DNA of 64,000 bases from Rhodohalobacter barkolensis (GTDB taxonomy: Bacteria > Bacteroidota > Rhodothermia > Balneolales > Balneolaceae), in assembly GCF_002834295.1 (NCBI RefSeq), contig NZ_PISP01000001.1:62001-126000 (forward strand), given 5' to 3'. Positions 2,835 to 60,824 of this stretch are shown one piece after another; positions within the stretch are counted from its first letter, which is position 1; every line of letters starts with the position of its first letter. A model generated the notes under the pieces. That model searched no databases. It saw only the letters and a program-made list of their open reading frames with translations, and had not been told where the DNA came from. The position numbers and the translations under genes are program-made.

Positions 2835-3368
2835 ATGAAGAAATTTCACTACTTCACAATAATTTTTCTTCTGGCAGGTTATGATGTCTCGATAGCCCAA
2901 AATCAAAAAATTGGGTTTATCGATTCTGAAGTAATCATGCAAAATATGCCTGAATACAGTGGAGTGGAACAAAGGTTGAACTTATTGAGTGAAAACTGGC
3001 GGCAAGAGATTCGTGAACTTGAGGATGAAGTTGAAAGGATGAGAGAAGATTTTGAAGCCAGGGAAATTTTATTCACAGACGATATACGGGAAGAAAGAGC
3101 TCAGGAAATTGAAATGAAAGCGGAAGAGCTGGATCAGTTGATCGAAACTAGATTTGGGCCGGATGGTGAATATTTTACACGGCAAAAAGAGTTGCTTGAA
3201 CCCATACAAAGGCAGATATTTGATGCCTTAAACATCGTAGCTGAAAGGGAAGATTTTGACTTCGTTTTTGACCGTGCACAAGACTCTCGATTTCTGTTTG
3301 TACGCCAGCAATGGAACCTAACCGAAGATGTGATGTTAGAATTAGGGTTAGATTCATCAAGTAATTAA
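2835..3368 (+). CDS. OmpH/Skp-family periplasmic chaperone, copy 1
   Basis: 177 residues. A signal peptide ends near residue 22 (SIAQ), then comes the family opening KIGFIDSEVIMQNMPE, a long Glu/Arg/Gln-rich coiled coil (about residues 45-120), and a C-terminal strand region with DFVFDRAQ. Skp trimers hold unfolded outer-membrane proteins in the periplasm and deliver them to BamA. The gene starts 12 bases after bamA, so translation is probably coupled. It is the most diverged of the three tandem copies: its C-terminus is longer and lacks the L-N-K/T-T motif of the others. Family assignment is firm; which copy is the main chaperone cannot be told. Confidence 0.9.
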   Translation: MKKFHYFTIIFLLAGYDVSIAQNQKIGFIDSEVIMQNMPEYSGVEQRLNLLSENWRQEIRELEDEVERMREDFEAREILFTDDIREERAQEIEMKAEELDQLIETRFGPDGEYFTRQKELLEPIQRQIFDALNIVAEREDFDFVFDRAQDSRFLFVRQQWNLTEDVMLELGLDSSSN

Positions 3369-3413
3369 AGATTATAAATTATAACTTAGGTCGCTTAATA
3401 AATAGGACAATTT

Positions 3414-3935
3414 ATGAAACAAACAATTCTGACAATACTATTCATTCTCTTGCCTCTCTCTGTTTTCGGACAGATGAAAGTGGGGATCATGAATCCGGAT
3501 GATGTACTTGACGCACTGCCGGAAACTGAAGAGGTTGAATCTCAAATACAGGATTATATCCAACAGAGGCAAGCCGATTTTCAGGAACAATACCAGGTGT
3601 GGATCGAGGATGTGACAGAGTTCTCTGAACTTGTTGAAGCCGGTGAGATTTCTGAAGAAGAGCAGGCTCAACGTGAAGAAGAGTTTCAGGAAAGACAGGA
3701 AGAGCTCAACAACCTGGAAAGCAGAATTCAACGTCAGATTCAGCAACGACAAAATGAGCTGTTTTCACCTCTTCTCAACAGAGTGGATGAAGCCATGAGT
3801 GAAGTATCTGAAGAGCTTGGCCTGGATTTTGTTTTAAACAAAACGGCAAGTTCAGGCGACCCCATTGTTTACTACTCTTCCCAGCGCGGAGTAGACATTA
3901 CAGAACGAGTTATTCAAAAACTTACACAGAACTAA
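3414..3935 (+). CDS. OmpH/Skp-family periplasmic chaperone, copy 2
   Basis: 173 residues with a short signal peptide (LPLSVFGQ, cut near residue 20). The opening KVGIMNPDDVLDALPE matches the Skp beta-strand/helix start, followed by a very Gln/Glu-rich coiled coil (residues 40-115) and a C-terminal LDFVLNKTASSGDPIVYY. That C-terminal sequence resembles copy 3 closely, so copies 2 and 3 are the closer pair. It probably has the same periplasmic holdase role for outer-membrane protein precursors. It sits 45 bases after copy 1 and 18 bases before copy 3. Confidence 0.9.
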   Translation: MKQTILTILFILLPLSVFGQMKVGIMNPDDVLDALPETEEVESQIQDYIQQRQADFQEQYQVWIEDVTEFSELVEAGEISEEEQAQREEEFQERQEELNNLESRIQRQIQQRQNELFSPLLNRVDEAMSEVSEELGLDFVLNKTASSGDPIVYYSSQRGVDITERVIQKLTQN

Positions 3936-3953
3936 TACGAACTCTCTATTATC

Positions 3954-4499
3954 ATGAAAAAAGTATATACACTAGGATTCATATTTCTCATTGCAATTAC
4001 AACACTCATGGCAGCTCCTGCAGTACAGGCTCAGGATATGAAAATTGGGTTTGTAGAGCCTAGAGCGGTTCTTGAACGCATGCCCGAAATGAGAGCAGTA
4101 CAGCAACGACTTCAAAATTTTGCTGAGCGTAAGCAGAATGAACTGGTTCAGAAAGAGCGTGAGCTTCAAACGGAAGTTGAAGTTTATCAACAAAAAGTAG
4201 GAGTGATTTCTGAGCAGGCACGTCAGGAAGAAGAGGAGCGTTTAAATACGATGGATACCGAATTCCGTCAGATGCAGCAAGAAGCTCAACAGGAACTTCA
4301 GCAGCAGCGAGCTGAATTGATGTCCCCACTTTTAGAGCAGATTCAGGGAGCGATTGATGCTGTAGCTGAAAGAAAAGGCTTGGACTACGTATTGAATACT
4401 ACAACTTCAAACGGTGATGTGATCATTCTTTATGTTTCACCACAGGTTAGAGATGAGTACGATATCACGGATGAAGTAATGTCTGAGCTCGACATCTAA
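3954..4499 (+). CDS. OmpH/Skp-family periplasmic chaperone, copy 3
   Basis: 181 residues. The signal peptide ends with APAVQAQ (near residue 27), followed by KIGFVEPRAVLERMPE, a Gln/Glu/Arg coiled coil (residues 50-125) and LDYVLNTTTSNGDVIILYVSP. It is the last gene of the uppS-bamA-skp run; a strong hairpin terminator starts 30 bases after the stop. The near match of the ends of copies 2 and 3 points to gene duplication. The function inferred is periplasmic outer-membrane-protein chaperone. Confidence 0.9.
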   Translation: MKKVYTLGFIFLIAITTLMAAPAVQAQDMKIGFVEPRAVLERMPEMRAVQQRLQNFAERKQNELVQKERELQTEVEVYQQKVGVISEQARQEEEERLNTMDTEFRQMQQEAQQELQQQRAELMSPLLEQIQGAIDAVAERKGLDYVLNTTTSNGDVIILYVSPQVRDEYDITDEVMSELDI

Positions 4500-50743: not shown

Positions 50744-51265
50744 ATGGAAACATATTTATTTGTACTATTTGCTGTTATAGCTATTGCCTCCGCATTGGGG
50801 ATGATATTGAATAAAAGCACCGTTAACAGCGCATTGATGCTGGTCATTAATTTGGTGACTCTTTCCGGTATTTATCTTCTCTTAAACGCTCAGTTTTTAG
50901 CGTTGATTCAAATCTTAGTTTACGCCGGCGCCATAATGGTGCTCTTCCTTTTTGTTATCATGTTGTTGAATGTGGACGATGAGGAGAGTCTATTTGCTAA
51001 ATTCAGGGTTAAATACTTTATCGCATTTCTACTGGGCAGTGTGATTTTTGCCCAAATTCTTTACAGTATTGGCGGTGCTGCTGAATTATTGCCGGAAATT
51101 TCATCTGATATGCTCGAAGCGGGTACAGTTGAAGCATTAGGTGATGTACTTTACACCGATTTTCTATTCACATTTGAAATGACCGCTATACTTTTGACAG
51201 CGGCTGTGGTGGGTGCGTTGATGCTTGCACAATTTCAAGTAAAAAAAGATGAGGATTCTGAATAA
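50744..51265 (+). CDS. nuoJ: NADH-quinone oxidoreductase subunit J
   Basis: 173 residues, five membrane helices. [49 protein letters not shown] (split here as [19 protein letters not shown] and [19 protein letters not shown]) is the signature of NuoJ, with the conserved Gly/Ala pattern in the third helix. It forms part of the proton-pumping membrane arm of complex I. The stop overlaps the nuoK start by one base. Confidence 0.94.
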
Positions 51266-51567
51266 TGGTAGGGATTGATTGGTATCTGGCACTCAGTGCT
51301 ATCCTGTTTACAATTGGAGCAATCGGAGTTTTAATTCGAAGAAATGCAATTGTAGTATTTATGTGCGTCGAGTTGATGCTCAATGCCGTGAATTTATCGC
51401 TTATTTCATTCAGCGCCTTTCACGGGGATGTTACCGGGCAAATACTGGTATTCTTTTCTCTCTCAGTGGCAGCTGCGGAAGCTGTTGTTGGTTTGGCTAT
51501 TATCATCTCAATATTCAGAAATAACTTATCTGTAGATATTACAAAGGTCAATCTGTTACGCTGGTAA
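51265..51567 (+). CDS. nuoK: NADH-quinone oxidoreductase subunit K
   Basis: 100 residues, three membrane helices. [30 protein letters not shown] carries the conserved glutamate of the second helix (split: [19 protein letters not shown]), and [18 protein letters not shown]-type sequence the third. Together with nuoJ it is separate from any other complex I gene in this window, and a terminator follows at once. Confidence 0.94.
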
Positions 51568-51796: not shown

Positions 51797-51830
51797 GATT
51801 AGGGGAACACCCTGCCTTCATCTGTACTAC
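51797..51830 (+). promoter_or_regulatory. Shared bipartite element, copy 1 (candidate ECF sigma promoter)
   Basis: GATTAGGGGAACACCC (51797-51812) and TTCATCTGTACTAC (51817-51830), start to start 20 nt. The same pair at the same spacing precedes the paralogous lipoprotein gene at 52953 and the DUF5666-like lipoprotein gene at 59907 (-). The first box includes GGAAC, the classical ECF -35 core. It lies about 50 bases before the ATG. Confidence 0.65.
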
Positions 51831-51868
51831 CAACAGAACAACAACCCCATAATCAAAATATTCAAGAC

Positions 51869-52582
51869 ATGAAGAATTCAATATTTAAACTAATTAGTAT
51901 GATTCTGGTCATCGGCGTGATTGCTGTTGGCTGTGATTTAACAGAATCATCTGTTGACGGTCAATCCGACGTTCAGGTTCAAATGAAAGTTAATGCCGGA
52001 CCGGTTACTAAAGCGATGGTTACCAGCAACAATGAGCACACAAATACCCTGGAAATTCAGGAAGTGAAACTCTTCATCGAAGAGATGGAGCTTGAAAGTA
52101 TCAATGACGATTCATCTGACTTTGAGATTGAATATTTCATCGCAGACCTTCCTTTAGATGGTTCTCCGCTGGTTATTACCAAGAAACAGATTCCAGCAGG
52201 ACTGTACGACGAGTTTGAGCTCGAAATCGAAAAGCCAGACGATGATGATGTAGAAGTCAATGATCCCGATTTCCGTGATGAAACCGGAAGGTACTCACTG
52301 GTTATAAAAGGTCTCTTTAACGGAGAAGAATTTACATTCAGAAGTAGTGAAGATTTTGAATTAGAAATGGACCTGAATCCACCACTTGAAGTCACAGAAT
52401 CTGAAAGCTCAACATTGGTTGTTTCAGTAGACGTAGACTCATGGTTCAAAGACAGCAATGGGGAGTATTTGGATCCTAAAGACTACTTCAACTCGGAAAG
52501 AATCAACGAAAACATTGAAAACTCATTCGAAGGGTTTGAAGACGATGATGATGACGACGATGATGACGATGACGACGACTAA
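51869..52582 (+). CDS. Lipoprotein (DUF4382-like) with poly-Asp tail
   Basis: 237 residues. A lipoprotein signal (VIGVIAVGC) is cut before Cys22. The body has a beta-sandwich-like pattern with LEIQEVKLFIEEMELESI and KKQIPAGLYDEFELEI (an L-P/IPAG-Y motif typical of DUF4382-like proteins). It is about 75-80% identical by eye to the first 230 residues of the protein at 52953. After FEGFE the protein ends in 13 consecutive Asp, where the paralogue continues into its repeats. The acidic tail suggests Ca2+ or other cation binding. A terminator hairpin follows at 52612. Confidence 0.75.
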   Translation: MKNSIFKLISMILVIGVIAVGCDLTESSVDGQSDVQVQMKVNAGPVTKAMVTSNNEHTNTLEIQEVKLFIEEMELESINDDSSDFEIEYFIADLPLDGSPLVITKKQIPAGLYDEFELEIEKPDDDDVEVNDPDFRDETGRYSLVIKGLFNGEEFTFRSSEDFELEMDLNPPLEVTESESSTLVVSVDVDSWFKDSNGEYLDPKDYFNSERINENIENSFEGFEDDDDDDDDDDDDD

Positions 52583-52611
52583 TTTTTCTTAAAAATATCC
52601 CTATACCCCAT

Positions 52612-52647
52612 AAGCCCTGCTGTTGACCGCGCAGGGCTTTTCTTTTT
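52612..52647 (+). terminator. Rho-independent terminator after the poly-Asp lipoprotein gene
   Basis: AAGCCCTGC pairs with GCAGGGCTT around a ten-base loop, followed by a T-rich tract. A very similar hairpin ends the paralogue at 54438, showing that the duplication covered the promoter, gene and terminator. The remaining gap to 52881 shows no gene. Confidence 0.85.
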
Positions 52648-52881
52648 TCTGTTACTGGGGCCGCTTGTCCACTTCTTTTCCCTTACACTTAAAGAATGTA
52701 CTAAGCCATATAATAATACTTTGACTACAATCTGATCTTATATCCGGATTAATAAATACGTTTACCACCAAAAGAGTTTATTTGTTAAACCATTGCAGGA
52801 AGCTATTTCTACACTTTTTTCCTGAAGTGAATAATTTTCATGCCCTGGACCATTGGGCAGATTATTAAAAAACAGAATAAT

Positions 52882-52915
52882 GATTAGGGGATACTCCCGC
52901 CTTCATCTGTACTAC
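52882..52915 (+). promoter_or_regulatory. Shared bipartite element, copy 2 (candidate ECF sigma promoter)
   Basis: GATTAGGGGATACTCC (52882-52897) and TTCATCTGTACTAC (52902-52915) at the same 20-nt spacing, 51 bases before the ATG from the second box. The following leader (AGAACAACACCCCCATAATC) is also shared with copy 1. Confidence 0.65.
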
Positions 52916-52952
52916 CAGTAGAACAACACCCCCATAATCAAATACCCAAGTC

Positions 52953-54404
52953 ATGAAGAATTCAATTTTTAAACTTTTTAATGTGATTCTGGTCATAGGC
53001 GTTCTGGCTGTTGGCTGTGATTTAACCGAATCAACTGTTGATGAACCGTCAGACGTTCAGGTACAGATGAAGGTCAACGCCGGTCCGGTTGCCAAAGCGA
53101 TGCTTACTAGCAACAACGAACATACTAATACACTGGAAATCCAGGAAGTGAAGATGTTTATCGAAAAGATGGAGCTCGAAAGTATTACTGATGATTCATC
53201 GGACTTTGAGATCGAAAATTTCATCGCTGATCTTCCTTTAGACGGTTCACCATTGGTTATTACCGAGAAACAGATTCCTGCAGGACTCTATGATGAGTTT
53301 GAACTCGAAATGGAAAAGCCTGATGACGATGATGTACAAGTAAAAGATCCCGATTTCCGTGATGAAACAGGTAGTTACTCCTTGGTTGTAAAAGGCCTCT
53401 TTAACGGAGAAGAGTTTACTTTCAGAAGCGCCGAGGATTTTGAAATTGAAATGGATCTGAATCCTCCTCTTGAAGTAACAGAAACGGAGAGTTCAACATT
53501 GGTAATATCAATTGATGTAGACAGCTGGTTTACCGGTTCTAATGGTGAAAAACTGGATCCTAAAGATTTCAAAAATACTGAGATGATTAATGATAATATA
53601 GAAAACTCGTTCGATGGGTTTGAAGATGATTATGACGATGATTCCGAAGAGTACGAATTTGAAGGCTATGTTGAGTCGGTAGATCTCACTGAGCAGACTT
53701 TCACCCTAACCAACGGAATGACGCTGCATGTGAACAGCGAGACCAGGTTTGATGATGACCTGAAATCTCTCGATGAACTTGAGTATGCTATTAGCGAGGG
53801 ATACACCGTGGAAGCTGACGGAGAGTACTACGTCGACAGTTCCGGAAGAAATGTGGTTGTTGAAGTGGACCTAGAAATCGAAGATGAAGACGACTTCGAG
53901 GATTACGATTTTGAAGGCTACGTTGAGTCAGTGGATCTCACTGAGCAGACTTTTACCCTAACCAACGGAATGACGCTGCATGTGAATAGCGAGACCAGGT
54001 TTGATGATGACCTGAAATCTCTCGATGAACTTGAGCATGCTATCAGCGAGGGATACACCGTGGAAGCTGACGGAGAGTACTACGTCGACAGTTCCGGAAG
54101 AGATGTGGTTGTTGAAGTGGACCTGGAAATCGAAGATGAAGACGACTTCGAGGATTACGATTTTGAAGGCTACGTTGAGTCAGTGGATCTCACTGAGCAG
54201 ACTTTCACCCTAACCAACGGAATGACGCTGCATGTGAACAGCGAGACCAGGTTTGAAGATGACCTGAAATCTCTCGATGAACTTGAGCATGCTATCAGCG
54301 AGGGATACACCGTGGAAGCTGACGGAGAGTACTACGTCGACAGTTCCGGAAGAGATGTGGTTATTGAAGTGGATCTAGAGATTGAAAACGGTGACGATGA
54401 CTAA
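52953..54404 (+). CDS. Lipoprotein (DUF4382-like) with three near-identical DUF5666-like repeats
   Basis: 483 residues. Lipoprotein signal with Cys22 (GVLAVGC). Residues 23-235 are the DUF4382-like part shared with the upstream paralogue. Residues 237-320, 321-404 and 405-483 are three repeats of exactly 84 residues (252 bp) with FEGYVESVDLTEQTFTLTNG, LHVNSETRFDDDLKSLDELE and YTVEADGEYYVDSSGR, separated by EDEDDFEDYD linkers. The DNA of the repeats is nearly identical, a sign of recent amplification or gene conversion. The repeats are small beta-barrels of the DUF5666 type. Probably surface or periplasmic; function unknown. Confidence 0.8.
   Translation: MKNSIFKLFNVILVIGVLAVGCDLTESTVDEPSDVQVQMKVNAGPVAKAMLTSNNEHTNTLEIQEVKMFIEKMELESITDDSSDFEIENFIADLPLDGSPLVITEKQIPAGLYDEFELEMEKPDDDDVQVKDPDFRDETGSYSLVVKGLFNGEEFTFRSAEDFEIEMDLNPPLEVTETESSTLVISIDVDSWFTGSNGEKLDPKDFKNTEMINDNIENSFDGFEDDYDDDSEEYEFEGYVESVDLTEQTFTLTNGMTLHVNSETRFDDDLKSLDELEYAISEGYTVEADGEYYVDSSGRNVVVEVDLEIEDEDDFEDYDFEGYVESVDLTEQTFTLTNGMTLHVNSETRFDDDLKSLDELEHAISEGYTVEADGEYYVDSSGRDVVVEVDLEIEDEDDFEDYDFEGYVESVDLTEQTFTLTNGMTLHVNSETRFEDDLKSLDELEHAISEGYTVEADGEYYVDSSGRDVVIEVDLEIENGDDD
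53661..54404 (+). repeat. Three tandem 252-bp coding repeats
   Basis: Units start at 53661, 53913 and 54165 (spacing 252 and 252). Differences are a few silent and conservative changes (GAGTAT/GAGCAT, GATGAT/GAAGAT, AATGTG/GATGTG). This makes the copy number likely to vary between strains and assemblies. Confidence 0.93.
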
Positions 54405-54437
54405 GTTTTCTTAAAAAATTCCCTATATACCCCATGG

Positions 54438-54470
54438 GCCCTGTTGCTGACGCACAGGGCTTTTATTTTA
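54438..54470 (+). terminator. Rho-independent terminator after the repeat lipoprotein gene
   Basis: GCCCTGT pairs with ACAGGGC around a nine-base loop followed by TTTTATTTTA. It is the paralogue of the hairpin at 52612. The rest of the gap to 54619 contains no gene. Confidence 0.82.
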
Positions 54471-54619
54471 TCGTTCCACTATTAGTCTGCTACTCTCAAT
54501 TACAAGGATGGAATAATTTTACAATACAAGTTATTTATCTGTAGCTCATTCAAAGACTATTTCACCCCCCGTGGTTTCGTCCCAGAGTCATGTGACACGA
54601 GGTACGGTGTAGTACTTTT

Positions 54620-57259
54620 TTAGAACGAGTACTTCACCGAAAAAGAAGGGTGGAAGCCGAGGTCTAAAACATCAACAGGTACAGGGGTTAGTCTTGGGAT
54701 TGACCTCGTCTCGTCAAAAGAGAACGCATAGTTTCTGTACCATACATTTTCCTGATCCAATACATTGAAAATCGAAAACGTAGCTTCAAGGCTGTTCTGG
54801 TTTCTGAACTGATGGGAGAAGCTCAACGTTGCATCAAGTCGCCGGTAGGCATCCAGGCGTTCCACAGGATCGGTCTGGAAAATATTTAACCTGTTTGGCG
54901 CTCCGCTCATCATCAGCCAGGAGAGATAGAAATCAATTCCCTTTCCAATATTTGTTTCCAGGATAGCATTGTAACTGTGCCGGCGATCCCAATCCGCATA
55001 AAATTCCTCGCCGTTCAGTAAAAAAGGGTTGCTAAAGGTCATTTCAGACAGCGTGTAGGTTTGGGATATGACAAAGCGCCCAAAGTAGTTGCGAAGGAGT
55101 ATTTCGATACCTGAAGCAGTGCCGCTATTTTGATAAAACCATGGAGTGCCGGAAAAAGTATTAGCCAGAGACTGAGTATTTAATTCGTGGCTTCTGAGAT
55201 TTTTATACTCTTTCTGATAGGCTTCTATTTGAAGTAAAAAATGGTTTGAAGGTAAAATCTGAAGTCCTATGGTGAACTGTTCTGCTTCTGCTGGTTTTTG
55301 ATTTTCCGGAGTCAGAATCCAGACGTCTGAAGTGGCGCTGTTCTCGATTGTGATTCGATGCAGAAATTGTTGATTTATTGAATACCCACCCTTAATCCTT
55401 AGCCCGTTCAATGGTTTTATCACAACTTCTCCACGGGGAGAGAAGTAGAATTCACTGTTGAGGGTGTAGTAGGTTGAGCGAAGTCCTGCATGGATTTCCA
55501 GAAAACCGAGGGGTTCCCACTTGTTTTGAAGATAAGCCTGCACCATGTGTGAACCTACATTTTGAAAATAGGACGGGCGATCAAAAGAAAATTCGCTGTA
55601 CTCACTCAGGTAATATTTCCACCCGGCTCCACCGGTCGCTGAGAAATTGGTTGTGTTGAATTCCAGCTCCTGATTGAATTTGAATTCATTCATTGCGCTT
55701 CTGTTTCGAAAGGGGTAGGTGAAGACAGAAACATTTTCAGATTCATCCGTTGAGTTTAAACGGGCGTAGACGAAATCCTCTTTTTCAAAATCGGTACGGT
55801 AGGAGCTGAATCCGGCCTGCGTAGAGCTGTAATATCTGTTTCTGAGCTCCTTCTCAAACTGAACGCTGAATGAAAGATTTCCCCATTCATTTGTGGTTTC
55901 AACCGGTTGAAAAGTAAATTCGCTACCCGATTCGGCCGTTCTGGTCCTGCGATCCGCCAGTTGATTGGTATAGTCGCCCCCAAAATAGCCACTGAAAATC
56001 CAGCGTGAAGCATCTTTGTTTTCAACATAAATTTTAGTGTGAAGATCAGCAAAAAATGCATCAGACTGACCGGGAACCAGGACCAGATCCGTAAAATCCT
56101 GAAAATTGCCGGTAACCCTTCGAGGTCGATTAATATCGAGACCCCATTGGATCATTTTAGAATTATTGAACCAGTTGAGTTGATCGATCAGAGAAACGCG
56201 ACCGGAAAGAAGCCAGCTGCTTCTTTTGCCCAAAGGGCCTTCAAAAGTTCCATTTAAACTTGTATTACTCAACCCTACATTCCCATTGAATTCATTCATG
56301 GAGCCTGTACGTGTAATCAGATTGAGTGCACCACCGGTAGGGGAGTCCATCTGTGCAGGAGCTACACCGTAGTAGTAACCGGAATTCTGAATTGCATCCG
56401 GATTGAAACTATCCAAGAGACCAAAGAGATGACTTTGATTAAAAATACTGAGCCCATCGAGTTGCACCATAAATCCATCGGGAGTGCTTCCGCGTACATT
56501 GATTCCATTGTTGAAAGCTGTACCGGCAGATACGGATGGATGAGACTGCAGCGCCCGAATTGAGTTAGCCTCTCCCATGGGACTGAATCGGGCAGCATCC
56601 ATCAGTCTGCTTGTTAGGGAATCGGAAGGATTGTAGCTCATCGAACCTGAAATGATAATCTCGTTACCCCGAACCGGTTCCGGTTCCAGGCGTATTGATA
56701 AATCACGTATTTGATTGGAAGCAGAAATATCCAGCTCAACTGTTTTCTGTTGATAACCGATATAGGAAAATGTCAACTGAACCGATTCAGTAGCCAGTTG
56801 TCGAGTTATGGAAAACCTCCCGGATGCGTTTGTAGCGGCACCTTTTCGATCGCCGGATTCATCCCAAGTGAGCGTGGCAAAGGGTAATCGTTCTCCTGTA
56901 TTATGATCGAGAACTTGTCCTGAAATCAACACATTCAAGGTGCGGTTTCTGTCAAAATTATCCCGTTGGGTAATTAAAACCTGTTTTCTGTCATGGTCCG
57001 TCAGCAAGGAGATTTCAGTCCGGGCCAGTGCACTATTCAGGTCTTCAAATATTGATTCTACATCAGACTCGAGCGTAACCGTCACATCAGCAATGAGAGA
57101 TTCCCGGTATAGAAAAAAGTATCCGGTTTCATTCTGCACGGTCTGGATAACCTTTTTTAGGGGAGTGTTTGAAAAAGAAAAATCGGAAGCTTTTGCAAAC
57201 TCCGATTGTATCATGAGTAGGAATACAGCTATAAAGAAGCATCTACCAACTGAGTTCAT
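54620..57259 (-). CDS. TonB-dependent receptor with STN signalling domain
   Basis: 879 residues. Signal peptide (cut near residue 24, FAKA), then a secretin/TonB short N-terminal (STN) domain (about 26-96, NTPLKKVIQTVQNETGYFFLY), a carboxypeptidase-regulatory-like beta-sandwich (about 108-195, ISGQVLDHNTGERLPFATLTW), the plug (about 205-330, GINVRGSTPDGFMVQLDGLSIFNQ) and a beta-barrel ending in Phe. An STN domain signals through a FecR-type anti-sigma factor, which is encoded just upstream (24 bases). Substrate unknown; no SusD gene is adjacent. Confidence 0.88.
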   Translation of the reverse strand: MNSVGRCFFIAVFLLMIQSEFAKASDFSFSNTPLKKVIQTVQNETGYFFLYRESLIADVTVTLESDVESIFEDLNSALARTEISLLTDHDRKQVLITQRDNFDRNRTLNVLISGQVLDHNTGERLPFATLTWDESGDRKGAATNASGRFSITRQLATESVQLTFSYIGYQQKTVELDISASNQIRDLSIRLEPEPVRGNEIIISGSMSYNPSDSLTSRLMDAARFSPMGEANSIRALQSHPSVSAGTAFNNGINVRGSTPDGFMVQLDGLSIFNQSHLFGLLDSFNPDAIQNSGYYYGVAPAQMDSPTGGALNLITRTGSMNEFNGNVGLSNTSLNGTFEGPLGKRSSWLLSGRVSLIDQLNWFNNSKMIQWGLDINRPRRVTGNFQDFTDLVLVPGQSDAFFADLHTKIYVENKDASRWIFSGYFGGDYTNQLADRRTRTAESGSEFTFQPVETTNEWGNLSFSVQFEKELRNRYYSSTQAGFSSYRTDFEKEDFVYARLNSTDESENVSVFTYPFRNRSAMNEFKFNQELEFNTTNFSATGGAGWKYYLSEYSEFSFDRPSYFQNVGSHMVQAYLQNKWEPLGFLEIHAGLRSTYYTLNSEFYFSPRGEVVIKPLNGLRIKGGYSINQQFLHRITIENSATSDVWILTPENQKPAEAEQFTIGLQILPSNHFLLQIEAYQKEYKNLRSHELNTQSLANTFSGTPWFYQNSGTASGIEILLRNYFGRFVISQTYTLSEMTFSNPFLLNGEEFYADWDRRHSYNAILETNIGKGIDFYLSWLMMSGAPNRLNIFQTDPVERLDAYRRLDATLSFSHQFRNQNSLEATFSIFNVLDQENVWYRNYAFSFDETRSIPRLTPVPVDVLDLGFHPSFSVKYSF

Positions 57260-57283
57260 ATTTTCCCAAACCCCTATTAAAAA

Positions 57284-58273
57284 TTACTGTAGTTGAAACT
57301 GATACCGATCTTCATCAATCTGAACGAATTCACCACCAAGCACAACTTCTAAATCCTGCAAACTCTGCTCGCGATCTTCGAGTGTGATAGAACCACCCAG
57401 AACTTCAGATCGAGTAGATTCTTCCATCTCAATTTCAATTCCAAAGTGAAATTCAAGTTCATCTGTTATTGATCCGGCACTTCGATCACTGAACATAAGC
57501 CTGCTCTGAGTCCACGAAGTGACTAAGGATTCTTCGAAACTGAAAGTTTCATAGAGTTGCAGATCGCGGATGGTTGCTCCTTCTCCGCTGGTTAATGTTA
57601 CGGATTGATCCTGATCCGGTGTCTCAAATGAAACGCGGCCCTCTATAAGATAAACGTTTGTTTCGCTGTTTCTTTCACTCAAGTTGAATGTAGTACCCAA
57701 AACCCGAATCCGGCCCTCAGTCGTTTCAACAAGAAACTCACGCTCCGGATTATGAGTCACCTCAAATAAACCTTCTCCGGAAAGTGAATAGCTCATATGC
57801 TCTTCAGATTCTGAGTTCAGATACAGTTGGGAATTTGGTCGCAGTGTTACAATTGAACCATCCTTCAATTCTACAGGTGTGATAGTTGTACCTGCATCGG
57901 CGATAAGGGTGGACTCAACCTGAGTGTTTTGACGTAATAAAAAGATCGAAGTAAACATGATCAAAACAGCTGCAGCCGCCGCCCAGATCCACTTGCTTCG
58001 GGAGAGTGAATATATGTTGGCACTTCCTGAGGAAGTTTGATCCTTCTCCGTCTGATTGATTTGGTCAAAAATGGATGCTTTTACATCATCTTTTCCTTTT
58101 ACAGCAATCTCTTCTGACTTTCCGTATTGATAGATTTTTGCTTCGTGCAGAAATTTAAAGAGCGGATCATCGATTTGAGCACTATCGAGTTCTCCGTTCA
58201 AAACTTTGCCGTAAGCCTTGCTTAGCAGAAGGTCCTGATCATTTTCCGATATGTTTGAATGGTTTGTCATCAA
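57284..58273 (-). CDS. FecR-family anti-sigma factor / transmembrane signal transducer
   Basis: 329 residues. A cytoplasmic N-terminal part (DUF4880-like helices, residues 1-90) precedes one membrane helix (about 95-113, WIWAAAAAVLIMFTSIFLL). The periplasmic FecR domain follows: TTITPVELKDGSIVTLRPNSQL, SLSGEGLFEVTHNPEREFLV and TTEGRIRVLGTTFNL. A final STN-binding-like region (DELEFHFGIEIEM, LGGEFVQID) ends the protein. It would keep the ECF sigma factor bound until the receptor signals. Confidence 0.9.
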   Translation of the reverse strand: MMTNHSNISENDQDLLLSKAYGKVLNGELDSAQIDDPLFKFLHEAKIYQYGKSEEIAVKGKDDVKASIFDQINQTEKDQTSSGSANIYSLSRSKWIWAAAAAVLIMFTSIFLLRQNTQVESTLIADAGTTITPVELKDGSIVTLRPNSQLYLNSESEEHMSYSLSGEGLFEVTHNPEREFLVETTEGRIRVLGTTFNLSERNSETNVYLIEGRVSFETPDQDQSVTLTSGEGATIRDLQLYETFSFEESLVTSWTQSRLMFSDRSAGSITDELEFHFGIEIEMEESTRSEVLGGSITLEDREQSLQDLEVVLGGEFVQIDEDRYQFQLQ

Positions 58274-58278
58274 TTTTA

Positions 58279-59907
58279 TTAATCTTCTTCAGAGTCAGAA
58301 TCTTCTTCAAATTTTATGCTGTAAACAATCCAGATTGCTTCGGCTGAATTGTAGTAGTAATCGCCATCCGCTTCCACAGAAATACCGGCATCCAGTGCAG
58401 CTGCTACTTCCTCGAGGGAATTGAAGTCGTCCTGTTCTATAATAGTCTCTTCCGTGATAAGAATTTGTTGACCATTGATCAAGGTGATGACTTGATTATC
58501 GATATCCACGGATTGAACCAGTTCTTCGAATTCATCCATTTCGAGTTCAAAATCCACTTCAGTTAAAATAAAGCGTTCGGTTTCCGGATCGACGTAAAAA
58601 TCACCTTCTGCATATACCGGCAGATTTAGATTTAATGCTTCAATTACATCCTCCAGTGAGTTGAAATCGTCATCAAACTCAAGATCAGTTTTTGCATTGA
58701 GGTAGAAAATTTCTCCGGTACTCAACGTCAGAGAGCTATCGGCCAAGTTGAGGTTTTCTACAAACTCTTCGAATTCATTTCCTTCATTTTCGAATTCAAC
58801 TTCACCGGCAATCCAAAGATTTACGTTTTCATCCGGTTTATAATACTCACCTTCTGCTTCAATACGGACTCCGCTCTCCATTGCAGAGACCACCTCATCA
58901 AGCGATTGAAAATCACTGTCATCATCAATTTCAGTTTCACTGTTGATCTGAATTTTCTGACCATTCGAAATTGTAAATATATTTTGCTGCAGATCTACCT
59001 CCACAATGCGTCCCTCGAACTCATCGTCATCAAACACTTCACCGCTTTCCAATCGAATTCTGTAGGTTTCAAAAACGTCCCTGAACTTGAGCAGTGCTGT
59101 ACCGTCTCCGTTAAATTCAAGTGTACCGTTCACAATTTTCGCCTCTGTGTCGCTTCCGGTTTGATTGGACCGAATGGTCGATTCGTAGCTCAGCGCTCCT
59201 GTAACTCCTTTTCGAAAACTTCGGATCTGCTCTACAGTCTCTTTGTTAATCTTAACATCCAAAAAATTCAGGTCAACCAGGTACTCGCGCTGAATCTGCC
59301 CGGTTGCATCATTCCGGATAAACAGGCCTTCACCGGTGTGTGATCCATCTAACGAGAGAAGCGGAGATTGATCGGATAGTCCGTCCAGAATAAGCCGGTC
59401 TGTGCGGTTAAAGGTAGAAGATTTGGATACAGTTTCAATCTCTCCGGTTCGCTGACCTTCAAATTCAAGCGACTCAATCAAATGACTGTTTTGATTTGGG
59501 GATTCAATAAAATTTCCATCGCTGTCGCGAAAAATATATTTCAGGTCATATTGAGTCGGGATACCGGTCATTGCATCAGTTCGGCCGAATTGTACCTGAT
59601 GAGCTCCCTGTGCTGAGATGTACTCGTAAGAATAGTCGTTAAGATTGCGGAAGCTACCGGTAGCCAACACAGAATTACCTGTAGCCAATCCGTTACTTGT
59701 AGGGATGGCAAATGCTTCGGTAAAACTGGACAGGAGACCACTGTCATTTTCAGAAACAGATTCGCCAATAATTTGTCCGGTTACGCGCAGCTCTTCGTCA
59801 GTTAAAATGGATCGGTTACTTTCAAAACTGTCGATGGTACACGAAGAGAGCGTGAAAACAAATAGGGCAAATAGAGTAAGAAGAATATGGGTTGAAAAAT
59901 GTTTCAT
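58279..59907 (-). CDS. Lipoprotein with three diverged DUF5666-like repeats
   Basis: 542 residues. Lipoprotein signal with LSSC (Cys23). Residues 40-290 are a beta-rich region with no family I recognise. Residues about 297-375, 378-454 and 459-534 are three DUF5666-like repeats (VEVDLQQNIFTISNGQKIQI, LNLADSSLTLSTGEIFYL, VQSVDIDNQVITLINGQQIL), each ending with EAEGEYY, YAEGDFYV or EADGDYYY. They match the repeats of the plus-strand lipoprotein in layout but are far more diverged. It lies between the sigma gene and fecR, five bases from the latter, an unusual insertion in a fecI-fecR-fecA order. Confidence 0.75.
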   Translation of the reverse strand: MKHFSTHILLTLFALFVFTLSSCTIDSFESNRSILTDEELRVTGQIIGESVSENDSGLLSSFTEAFAIPTSNGLATGNSVLATGSFRNLNDYSYEYISAQGAHQVQFGRTDAMTGIPTQYDLKYIFRDSDGNFIESPNQNSHLIESLEFEGQRTGEIETVSKSSTFNRTDRLILDGLSDQSPLLSLDGSHTGEGLFIRNDATGQIQREYLVDLNFLDVKINKETVEQIRSFRKGVTGALSYESTIRSNQTGSDTEAKIVNGTLEFNGDGTALLKFRDVFETYRIRLESGEVFDDDEFEGRIVEVDLQQNIFTISNGQKIQINSETEIDDDSDFQSLDEVVSAMESGVRIEAEGEYYKPDENVNLWIAGEVEFENEGNEFEEFVENLNLADSSLTLSTGEIFYLNAKTDLEFDDDFNSLEDVIEALNLNLPVYAEGDFYVDPETERFILTEVDFELEMDEFEELVQSVDIDNQVITLINGQQILITEETIIEQDDFNSLEEVAAALDAGISVEADGDYYYNSAEAIWIVYSIKFEEDSDSEED

Positions 59908-59934
59908 TTTGATAGTGTATTACGTTGTTCAACT

Positions 59935-59968
59935 ATAATACAGATGAACCGGGGTGTTTCCCCTAATC
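59935..59968 (-). promoter_or_regulatory. Shared bipartite element, copy 3 (candidate ECF sigma promoter)
   Basis: On the minus strand GATTAGGGGAAACACCCC (59968-59951) and TTCATCTGTATTAT (59948-59935), start to start 20 nt, as at copies 1 and 2. It lies 41 bases from the ATG of the DUF5666-like lipoprotein gene and overlaps the end of the sigma gene by two bases, so lipoprotein-fecR-receptor can be expressed apart from the sigma gene. Confidence 0.65.
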
Positions 59969-60533
59969 ATTTTTTCAAAAGATTGAATGTTTTTAGAAGG
60001 TCTTTACCATAAATTTCCGTGATGCCATGGCGCAGATCTTTAAATGCGAGTGCCATATGGTTTTCTATCGTTTTAGGACTGACATCCATGGCATCGGCTG
60101 CTTCCTTATAAGTGAACTCTTTCATAAAACAGAGTTCAAAAACCATTCCTCTCTTTTCCGGCATTGATGAGATAATCTTTCGAACAATTCGTAAAAGTTC
60201 TTTGTGATCGAGCGACTCTTCCGTGCTTTTTGCTGTTGAATGTTCTTCAGGTACCTCTTGCTCTTTAAATTTAGACTGATACTCGATGTGATTCAACATT
60301 CGGCTGTATGCGATTGTAAAGAGATAGGATCGCAAAGATTTGGTTTCATCGATACTGCCGCGCTTTTCCCAAATCATAATAAAAGCCCGTTGAACCAGAT
60401 CCCGTGCCTCATCATGGTTCATGTTTCGGCTGACCAGAAATCGGTACAAGCTATCGTAATGACGATTAAAAAAGGTTTCAAACGCAGCCCGATCTCCATT
60501 ACGGATAGCTATGGATAACTCAATATCATCCAT
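59967..60533 (-). CDS. ECF RNA polymerase sigma factor (FecI-like)
   Basis: 188 residues from the ATG at 60533 (MDDIELSIAIRNGDRAAFE); the open frame reaches 60596 but the extra 21 residues are hydrophobic and untypical. Region sigma2 (about 10-78) contains YDSLYRFLVSRNMNHDEARDLVQRAFIMIWEKR; split as FLVSRNMNHDEARDLVQRAF. Region sigma4 (about 120-172) contains MVFELCFMKEFTYKEAADAM and VSPKTIENHMALAFKDLR. It would direct RNA polymerase to the shared promoter elements and be held by the FecR protein encoded two genes downstream. Confidence 0.9.
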   Translation of the reverse strand: MDDIELSIAIRNGDRAAFETFFNRHYDSLYRFLVSRNMNHDEARDLVQRAFIMIWEKRGSIDETKSLRSYLFTIAYSRMLNHIEYQSKFKEQEVPEEHSTAKSTEESLDHKELLRIVRKIISSMPEKRGMVFELCFMKEFTYKEAADAMDVSPKTIENHMALAFKDLRHGITEIYGKDLLKTFNLLKK

Positions 60534-60824
60534 ATCACTCTCTTTAGAAAGAGCGAGGATTAAGAGTATGAGGTCTATGCCGGGTAGTATTGCCATTTAA
60601 CGATTATTTTGATTAACCGAAGATGTAGAGTAATCATTCTAAGGTTGACAGAAAAGAGTGGAATTTTACTCAAATGATTGATCAAAAGTAAGCTGATCTT
60701 TTTCGTTTTCATTAGTTAGAAGTGTATTTTCAACACTCACGAAATTTTTTAGGAGGAGAAAAAAGTCGGCAAGTCGAATCTTGATGGTTATTCAATCCTC
60801 CGGTCAATAAAAACAGATATTACA

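Follow-up and report, generated by a model that had tools for sequence, protein, structure and literature searches.

A constant lipoprotein partner in a probable FecI/FecR/FecA-type signalling regulon of Rhodohalobacter barkolensis and other Balneolaceae

Surface-signalling systems of the FecI/FecR/FecA type, such as that for ferric citrate in Escherichia coli, combine an extracytoplasmic function (ECF) sigma factor, a membrane FecR protein and a TonB-dependent receptor with an N-terminal extension, and the fecR gene typically, although not necessarily, follows the sigma gene directly. The window analysed here, a stretch of 64,000 nucleotides of Rhodohalobacter barkolensis (assembly GCF_002834295.1, contig NZ_PISP01000001.1, positions 62,001 to 126,000), contains such a set in which a lipoprotein gene, lipC, lies between the sigma and fecR genes, and two more lipoprotein genes, lipA and lipB, lie on the plus strand and run towards the receptor gene. 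What do these lipoproteins have to do with the signalling system? An original prediction, made from the letters of the DNA, described the locus as a signalling island rebuilt around DUF5666-like lipoproteins. Here we argue that it is probably a surface-signalling regulon of the FecIRA type to which LipC belongs as a constant fourth component, and that LipA and LipB would be its sigma-driven output. The features of the locus are as follows.

51799..51829, plus strand: promoter-like motif TTAGGGGAACACCCTGCCTTCATCTGTACTA before lipA
51869..52582, plus strand: lipA, acidic lipoprotein with lipobox Cys22, a DUF4382/MbnP-like domain and a poly-Asp tail
52541..52579, plus strand: C-terminal tail of LipA, 13 Asp, with GAT and GAC codons mixed
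52884..52914, plus strand: promoter-like motif before lipB
52953..54404, plus strand: lipB, paralogue of LipA in which three DUF5666 repeats replace the tail
53646..54392, plus strand: three near-identical DUF5666 repeats of LipB, with a period of 252 nt
54620..57259, minus strand: TonB-dependent receptor with an STN-like N-terminal extension, CarbopepD_reg_2 and Plug
57284..58273, minus strand: FecR-type membrane anti-sigma factor/regulator
58279..59907, minus strand: lipC, lipoprotein with lipobox Cys23, core of the module
59053..59907, minus strand: N-terminal domain of LipC, residues 1-285, conserved, without a Pfam model
58300..59031, minus strand: tail of LipC, three divergent DUF5666/OB-fold repeats, variable
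59936..59966, minus strand: promoter-like motif in the gap from sigma to lipC, directly next to the stop codon of sigma
59967..60596, minus strand: ECF sigma factor (TIGR02985), with an alternative start (internal ATG) at 60533 and no motif upstream

The six open reading frames and the minus-strand order sigma, lipoprotein, FecR, receptor were found where the original prediction had placed them, with intergenic gaps of 59 (sigma/lipC), 5 (lipC/fecR) and 24 bases (fecR/receptor). Its assignment of a FecI/FecR/receptor signalling set also stands: the sigma factor scores 129.6 bits against TIGR02985 (NCBIfam cut-off 126.4), the FecR protein, whose sequence holds the hydrophobic segment WIWAAAAAVLIMFTSIFLL, scores 56.7 bits against PF04773 (cut-off 24), and the receptor scores 58.6 bits for CarbopepD_reg_2 (cut-off 32.2) and 24.3 bits for Plug (cut-off 23.9), the latter three being Pfam models. 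The sigma reading frame opens with a hydrophobic N-terminal extension, MAILPGIDLILLILALSKES, which is partly conserved in relatives (LLLxxALSKS), and its true start may therefore be the upstream ATG instead of that at 60533. On inspection, the three other FecR loci of this genome that have a sigma gene all follow the classical order sigma-FecR-SusC-SusD, so that the locus in the window really differs. The predicted non-classical position of a lipoprotein between the sigma and fecR genes is thus borne out within the genome, and the comparison of relatives shows that it is general.

Firstly, LipC homologues were found in 52 of 92 genomes of the family (a count that would include matches through DUF5666 only) and in 59 of 394 genomes across the phylum, most of them inside the class, the few outside being weak partial matches. 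The named records bearing LipC include Rhodohalobacter, Gracilimonas and Balneola, and the window genome belongs to the same genus group as the LipC-bearing record of Rhodohalobacter sulfatireducens. Among 40 Balneolaceae loci that were fetched, 37 have the order sigma-LipC-FecR-receptor on one strand; two of the exceptions are truncated by the end of their contig (L049 and L066), and the third is a lone LipC (L078). The distance from sigma to lipC is about 1.0-1.4 kb in two loci, L074 and L075. The same cassette recurs in other families of the class, alongside some stand-alone LipC copies, and several genomes carry a second complete copy of the module (e.g. L040, L045, L051 and L139/L143). 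A lipoprotein beside FecR and sigma genes is therefore a recurrent neighbourhood across the class and, rather than being absent from homologous loci, LipC is their constant member. This constancy, together with its fixed position and its duplication with the whole cassette, suggests that LipC has a role in the core circuit.

Secondly, the constant part of LipC is not DUF5666. It is an N-terminal domain of about 285 residues, unnamed in Pfam, in which Cys23, D170 and H190 are invariant and H103 is nearly so. DUF5666 (PF18914) is present in 25 of the 41 LipC proteins, in 1-11 copies, and absent from the remaining 16, and because its copy number ranges from 0 to 11 we rejected it as the core of LipC; the view that the island is rebuilt around DUF5666 fails on the same counts. 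In the window genome the domain occurs nowhere besides LipB (85.6 bits) and LipC (41.0 bits; cut-off 27). The DUF5666 repeats of the original prediction are real in these two proteins and are lacking in LipA, which has a DUF4382/MbnP-like domain. The three 252-nt repeats of LipB are mutually 92-94% identical. A 1210-residue LipC homologue (L040, 3120-6752) has 11 DUF5666 repeats, some of them 72% identical to those of LipB, which suggests that tails have been exchanged between lipoproteins.

Thirdly, LipC, LipA and LipB are tied together by a feature that the original prediction had overlooked. A two-box motif of about 31 nt, TTRGGGG-N15/16-(C/G)TGTANTA, precedes lipA, lipB and the lipC-fecR-receptor operon but not the sigma gene, and these are exactly the three matches in the 3.6 Mb genome, also when a looser pattern is used. 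It is because of this common promoter-like motif that we place LipA and LipB in the same set as the LipC operon. A position weight matrix (PWM) was built on lipC promoters, with lipC genes scored leave-one-out and other genes scored with the full matrix. A score of at least 14 was reached at 40 of 41 lipC genes, and one of at least 16.9 at 15 of 17 DUF4382 genes in genomes that have the system, including one (in G035) that lies on a contig other than that of the operon. None of six DUF4382 genes from genomes lacking the system exceeds 3, none of 39 sigma genes exceeds 5, and only four of 322 flanking genes reach 12. The motif is absent from two further DUF4382 homologues, one in a Balneola genome that has the system and one in the window genome, outside the window. 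Under the strict pattern, the 51 genomes that have LipC gave 104 matches and the 38 that lack it gave five (Fisher p 8.5e-15, for presence per genome). A reversed-pattern control gave about one match per genome in both groups, so that it is the contrast between the groups, and not the raw count, that constitutes the evidence. The motif can still be made out upstream of lipC in several class members that are more distantly related. In a 98% complete genome (G082) with a lone lipC and without a sigma orthologue (best match 25%), the motif before lipC is gone, although in its sister genomes a sigma orthologue (37-42%) adjoins lipC, mostly with the motif. Based on its restriction, its co-occurrence with the system and its loss together with the sigma gene, the motif is likely to be the promoter read by this sigma factor. 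If so, the sigma gene likely lies outside its own regulon, and fecR and the receptor gene inside it.

The probable products of this regulon other than the operon itself are LipA and LipB, which share the DUF4382/MbnP-like N-terminal domain; LipB is a duplicate of LipA in which three DUF5666 repeats have replaced the poly-Asp tail. LipA scores 20.2 bits against DUF4382 (PF14321), below the cut-off of 25, and the N-terminus of LipB likewise touches this family below the curated cut-off; among nine relatives, five match DUF4382 at an E-value of 0.05 or better (best 2.5e-6). The 13-Asp tail predicted for LipA was confirmed, and a tail of at least seven Asp codons before the stop is unique to lipA genome-wide. 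Uninterrupted Asp runs of at least five were found in all 15 examined DUF4382 proteins in or beside the regulon, LipB excepted, and in none of eight unlinked homologues; as their codons are mixed, simple codon slippage is not the explanation. A search of the LipA profile against sequences of solved structures matched only Asp-rich Rad6 tails, which we regard as an artefact. A third DUF4382-type lipoprotein of the same genome, outside the window (L227, 4089-5801; contig 1, about 138,089-139,801), has TIGR02543-type repeats and neither the motif nor an Asp tail.

Based on these observations, the system could work as follows. The receptor would bind an extracellular ligand, FecR would carry this information over the inner membrane, and the ECF sigma factor would be freed. 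Acting at the motif, it would then switch on a regulon of very few members: its neighbouring lipC-fecR-receptor operon, lipA and lipB. If the sigma factor reads the motif, transcription should start just 3' of GTGTANTA at lipC and at the lipA/lipB homologues. At the outer membrane, LipC would most likely be the receptor's partner in capture or gating, and LipA and LipB would be the induced, presumably surface-exposed, output, that is, acidic lipoproteins of the MbnP fold with either a poly-Asp or an OB-fold (DUF5666) tail. As in the FecI/FecR/FecA system, a putative sigma-dependent promoter precedes the receptor operon, of which the sigma gene is not a part; the candidate promoter is found at this operon and before two other genes only. 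The differences are that a lipoprotein gene separates sigma from fecR, that fecR is itself within the putatively sigma-driven operon, that the regulon would include two further lipoprotein genes, and that no ferric-citrate ABC transporter is present at the locus in the window.

Several points weigh against this proposal. The extension of about 85 residues at the N-terminus of the receptor is conserved and has an STN-like pattern, but Pfam detected no STN domain, as named in the original prediction, in any of 22 receptor homologues; against sequences of solved structures, this region gave chance matches only, and the receptor as a whole gave no informative relative. The genomes compared are related, and the motif counts are therefore not independent. 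The N-terminal domain of LipC, modelled as extended beta structure (pLDDT, the predicted local distance difference test, 88.7 for the LipC model), has no clear structural relative: Foldseek gave no convincing match, sequences of solved structures gave no informative one, and similarities to parts of outer-membrane barrels, OspA and ORD (Z 7-9, root-mean-square deviation (rmsd) 4-7) were taken to reflect a common beta arrangement. Finally, lipC could be a regulated passenger and not a partner of the receptor.

A narrower version of the proposal, which we regard as a tentative possibility, is that the system acquires a metal or metal complex: the receptor would take up a chelated metal, the metal would be bound at the surface by LipC and the acidic lipoproteins, and the MbnH-like enzymes of relatives would modify a partner protein, as in the methanobactin mbnIRT-PH systems. 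In composition, the nearest documented relative of the locus is indeed the methanobactin MbnI/MbnR/MbnT system with MbnP and MbnH, in which mbnIRT sets occur with MbnP/MbnH (PMC3621798), and this likeness lends some weight to the idea of a metal. LipA is predicted to share the MbnP fold: its AlphaFold2 model (pLDDT 76; predicted template modelling score 0.73) matches MbnP (7l6g) best, with Z 9.9 and rmsd 3.8 over 167 residues, the next best reaching 5.1, although Foldseek alone was not significant, and its match to the Pfam family MbnP (PF20243; 22.8 bits, E 1e-4) lies below the cut-off of 27. In some relatives, an MbnH-like di-haem lipoprotein is encoded behind the same motif, which is found upstream of all eight close orthologues (at least 70% identity). 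The poly-Asp tails would also fit metal binding.

On the other hand, the copper site of MbnP is built from His ligands and a modified Trp. In the alignment of the LipA family, acidic residues are invariant at many positions, as is a single Trp (W171), but no His is invariant and, in the mature protein, no Cys except that bearing the lipid. The window genome has no MbnH-like orthologue (searched at E 1e-20), MbnH-like genes and DUF4382 genes are not always found together, for which reason we rejected them as an obligate pair, and no counterpart of LipC has been described for the Mbn systems. The DUF5666 repeats in the LipC model are OB folds resembling CusF (Z about 8), but the resemblance is one of shape only: the conserved Met/His/Trp set of the CusF copper site has no equivalent in them, and a copper-chaperone reading was rejected. 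Acidity, moreover, is common in halophiles too. A metal role, as suggested in the original prediction, is possible. That the whole class (Balneolales/Rhodothermales) uses a trans-envelope metal circuit, in which receptor and LipC act together with an output of metal-binding surface lipoproteins and modifying enzymes (MbnH-like, a CotH-type kinase and one relative's gamma-carboxylase-like protein) under one conserved promoter, seems to us an unlikely, speculative extension.

It is also conceivable, although rather doubtful, that the lipoproteins are pure output, such as a surface coat, an adhesion or a cation-binding layer, and that lipC is only the leading gene of the regulated operon, LipC contributing neither to sensing nor to uptake. 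The motif-bearing genes of relatives mostly encode exported proteins or lipoproteins; besides DUF4382 proteins and the di-haem enzyme, they include a CotH-like kinase (motif upstream in three of three close orthologues) and a YHYH lipoprotein (in two genomes), with the matches about 60 nt before the start codons. The window genome has no orthologue of the CotH-like gene. The variable repeat tails resemble surface display, and the second-best structural matches of LipA are Bacteroides adhesin and fimbrial folds (Z 4-5). This explanation does not account for LipC being the one constant lipoprotein, fixed between sigma and fecR. A clean copy of the motif also stands before a DUF1800-DUF1501 gene pair (L206, 1887-5031, in G031), and the motif lies 65 nt before the start of an HTTM/vitamin K-dependent gamma-carboxylase-like gene near the LipC operon (L221, 2696-4227, in G075). 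Such single cases may be chance matches, and the motif could also be used by paralogous sigma factors.

That the motif is the binding site of a separate regulator and not a sigma promoter is improbable. Several copies do contain GGGGTACCCC-like palindromes, which gives them the character of inverted repeats, but many copies lack a palindrome, and the motif has two boxes at nearly fixed spacing, lies mostly 60-100 nt upstream of start codons and has disappeared along with the sigma gene. A degenerate polysaccharide locus of the SusCD type, of which the TIGR02985 sigma factor, FecR and CarbopepD_reg_2-Plug receptor would be typical, is very improbable and largely refuted, since the receptor is followed by no minus-strand gene and only by the convergent lipB, so that SusD is absent from the locus as predicted, since clustering of the conserved neighbours in the flanks of the 40 loci revealed no substrate genes, and since the three SusCD-type signalling loci of the genome, which have SusD-like genes on inspection, differ in gene order and have longer receptors. 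At the locus in the window, a lipoprotein of another family precedes FecR. What the flanks do show, on inspection, is lineage synteny, for example of ABC-type, SPFH/NfeD-like and RidA-like genes.

Elsewhere in the window, inspection revealed a pair of NuoJ-like and NuoK-like genes (50744-51567), with no other complex I genes adjoining it in the window, and a BamA-like gene followed by three consecutive OmpH/Skp-like genes (2835-4499).

In the open literature that we searched, we found no description of this system and none joining Balneolaceae with FecR. The real novelty of the locus is LipC, the constant fourth member of a signalling set that is conserved over much of the class, and the analysis thereby yields an unnamed lipoprotein family as the constant partner of a signalling receptor. 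It also provides a candidate for the promoter sequence of an ECF sigma factor whose regulon would comprise only three promoters in this genome. Which targets the sigma factor has, and what a lipoprotein does in TonB-linked signalling, can therefore be tested directly. Finally, the analysis suggests that proteins of the MbnP fold may have functions outside methanobactin operons.

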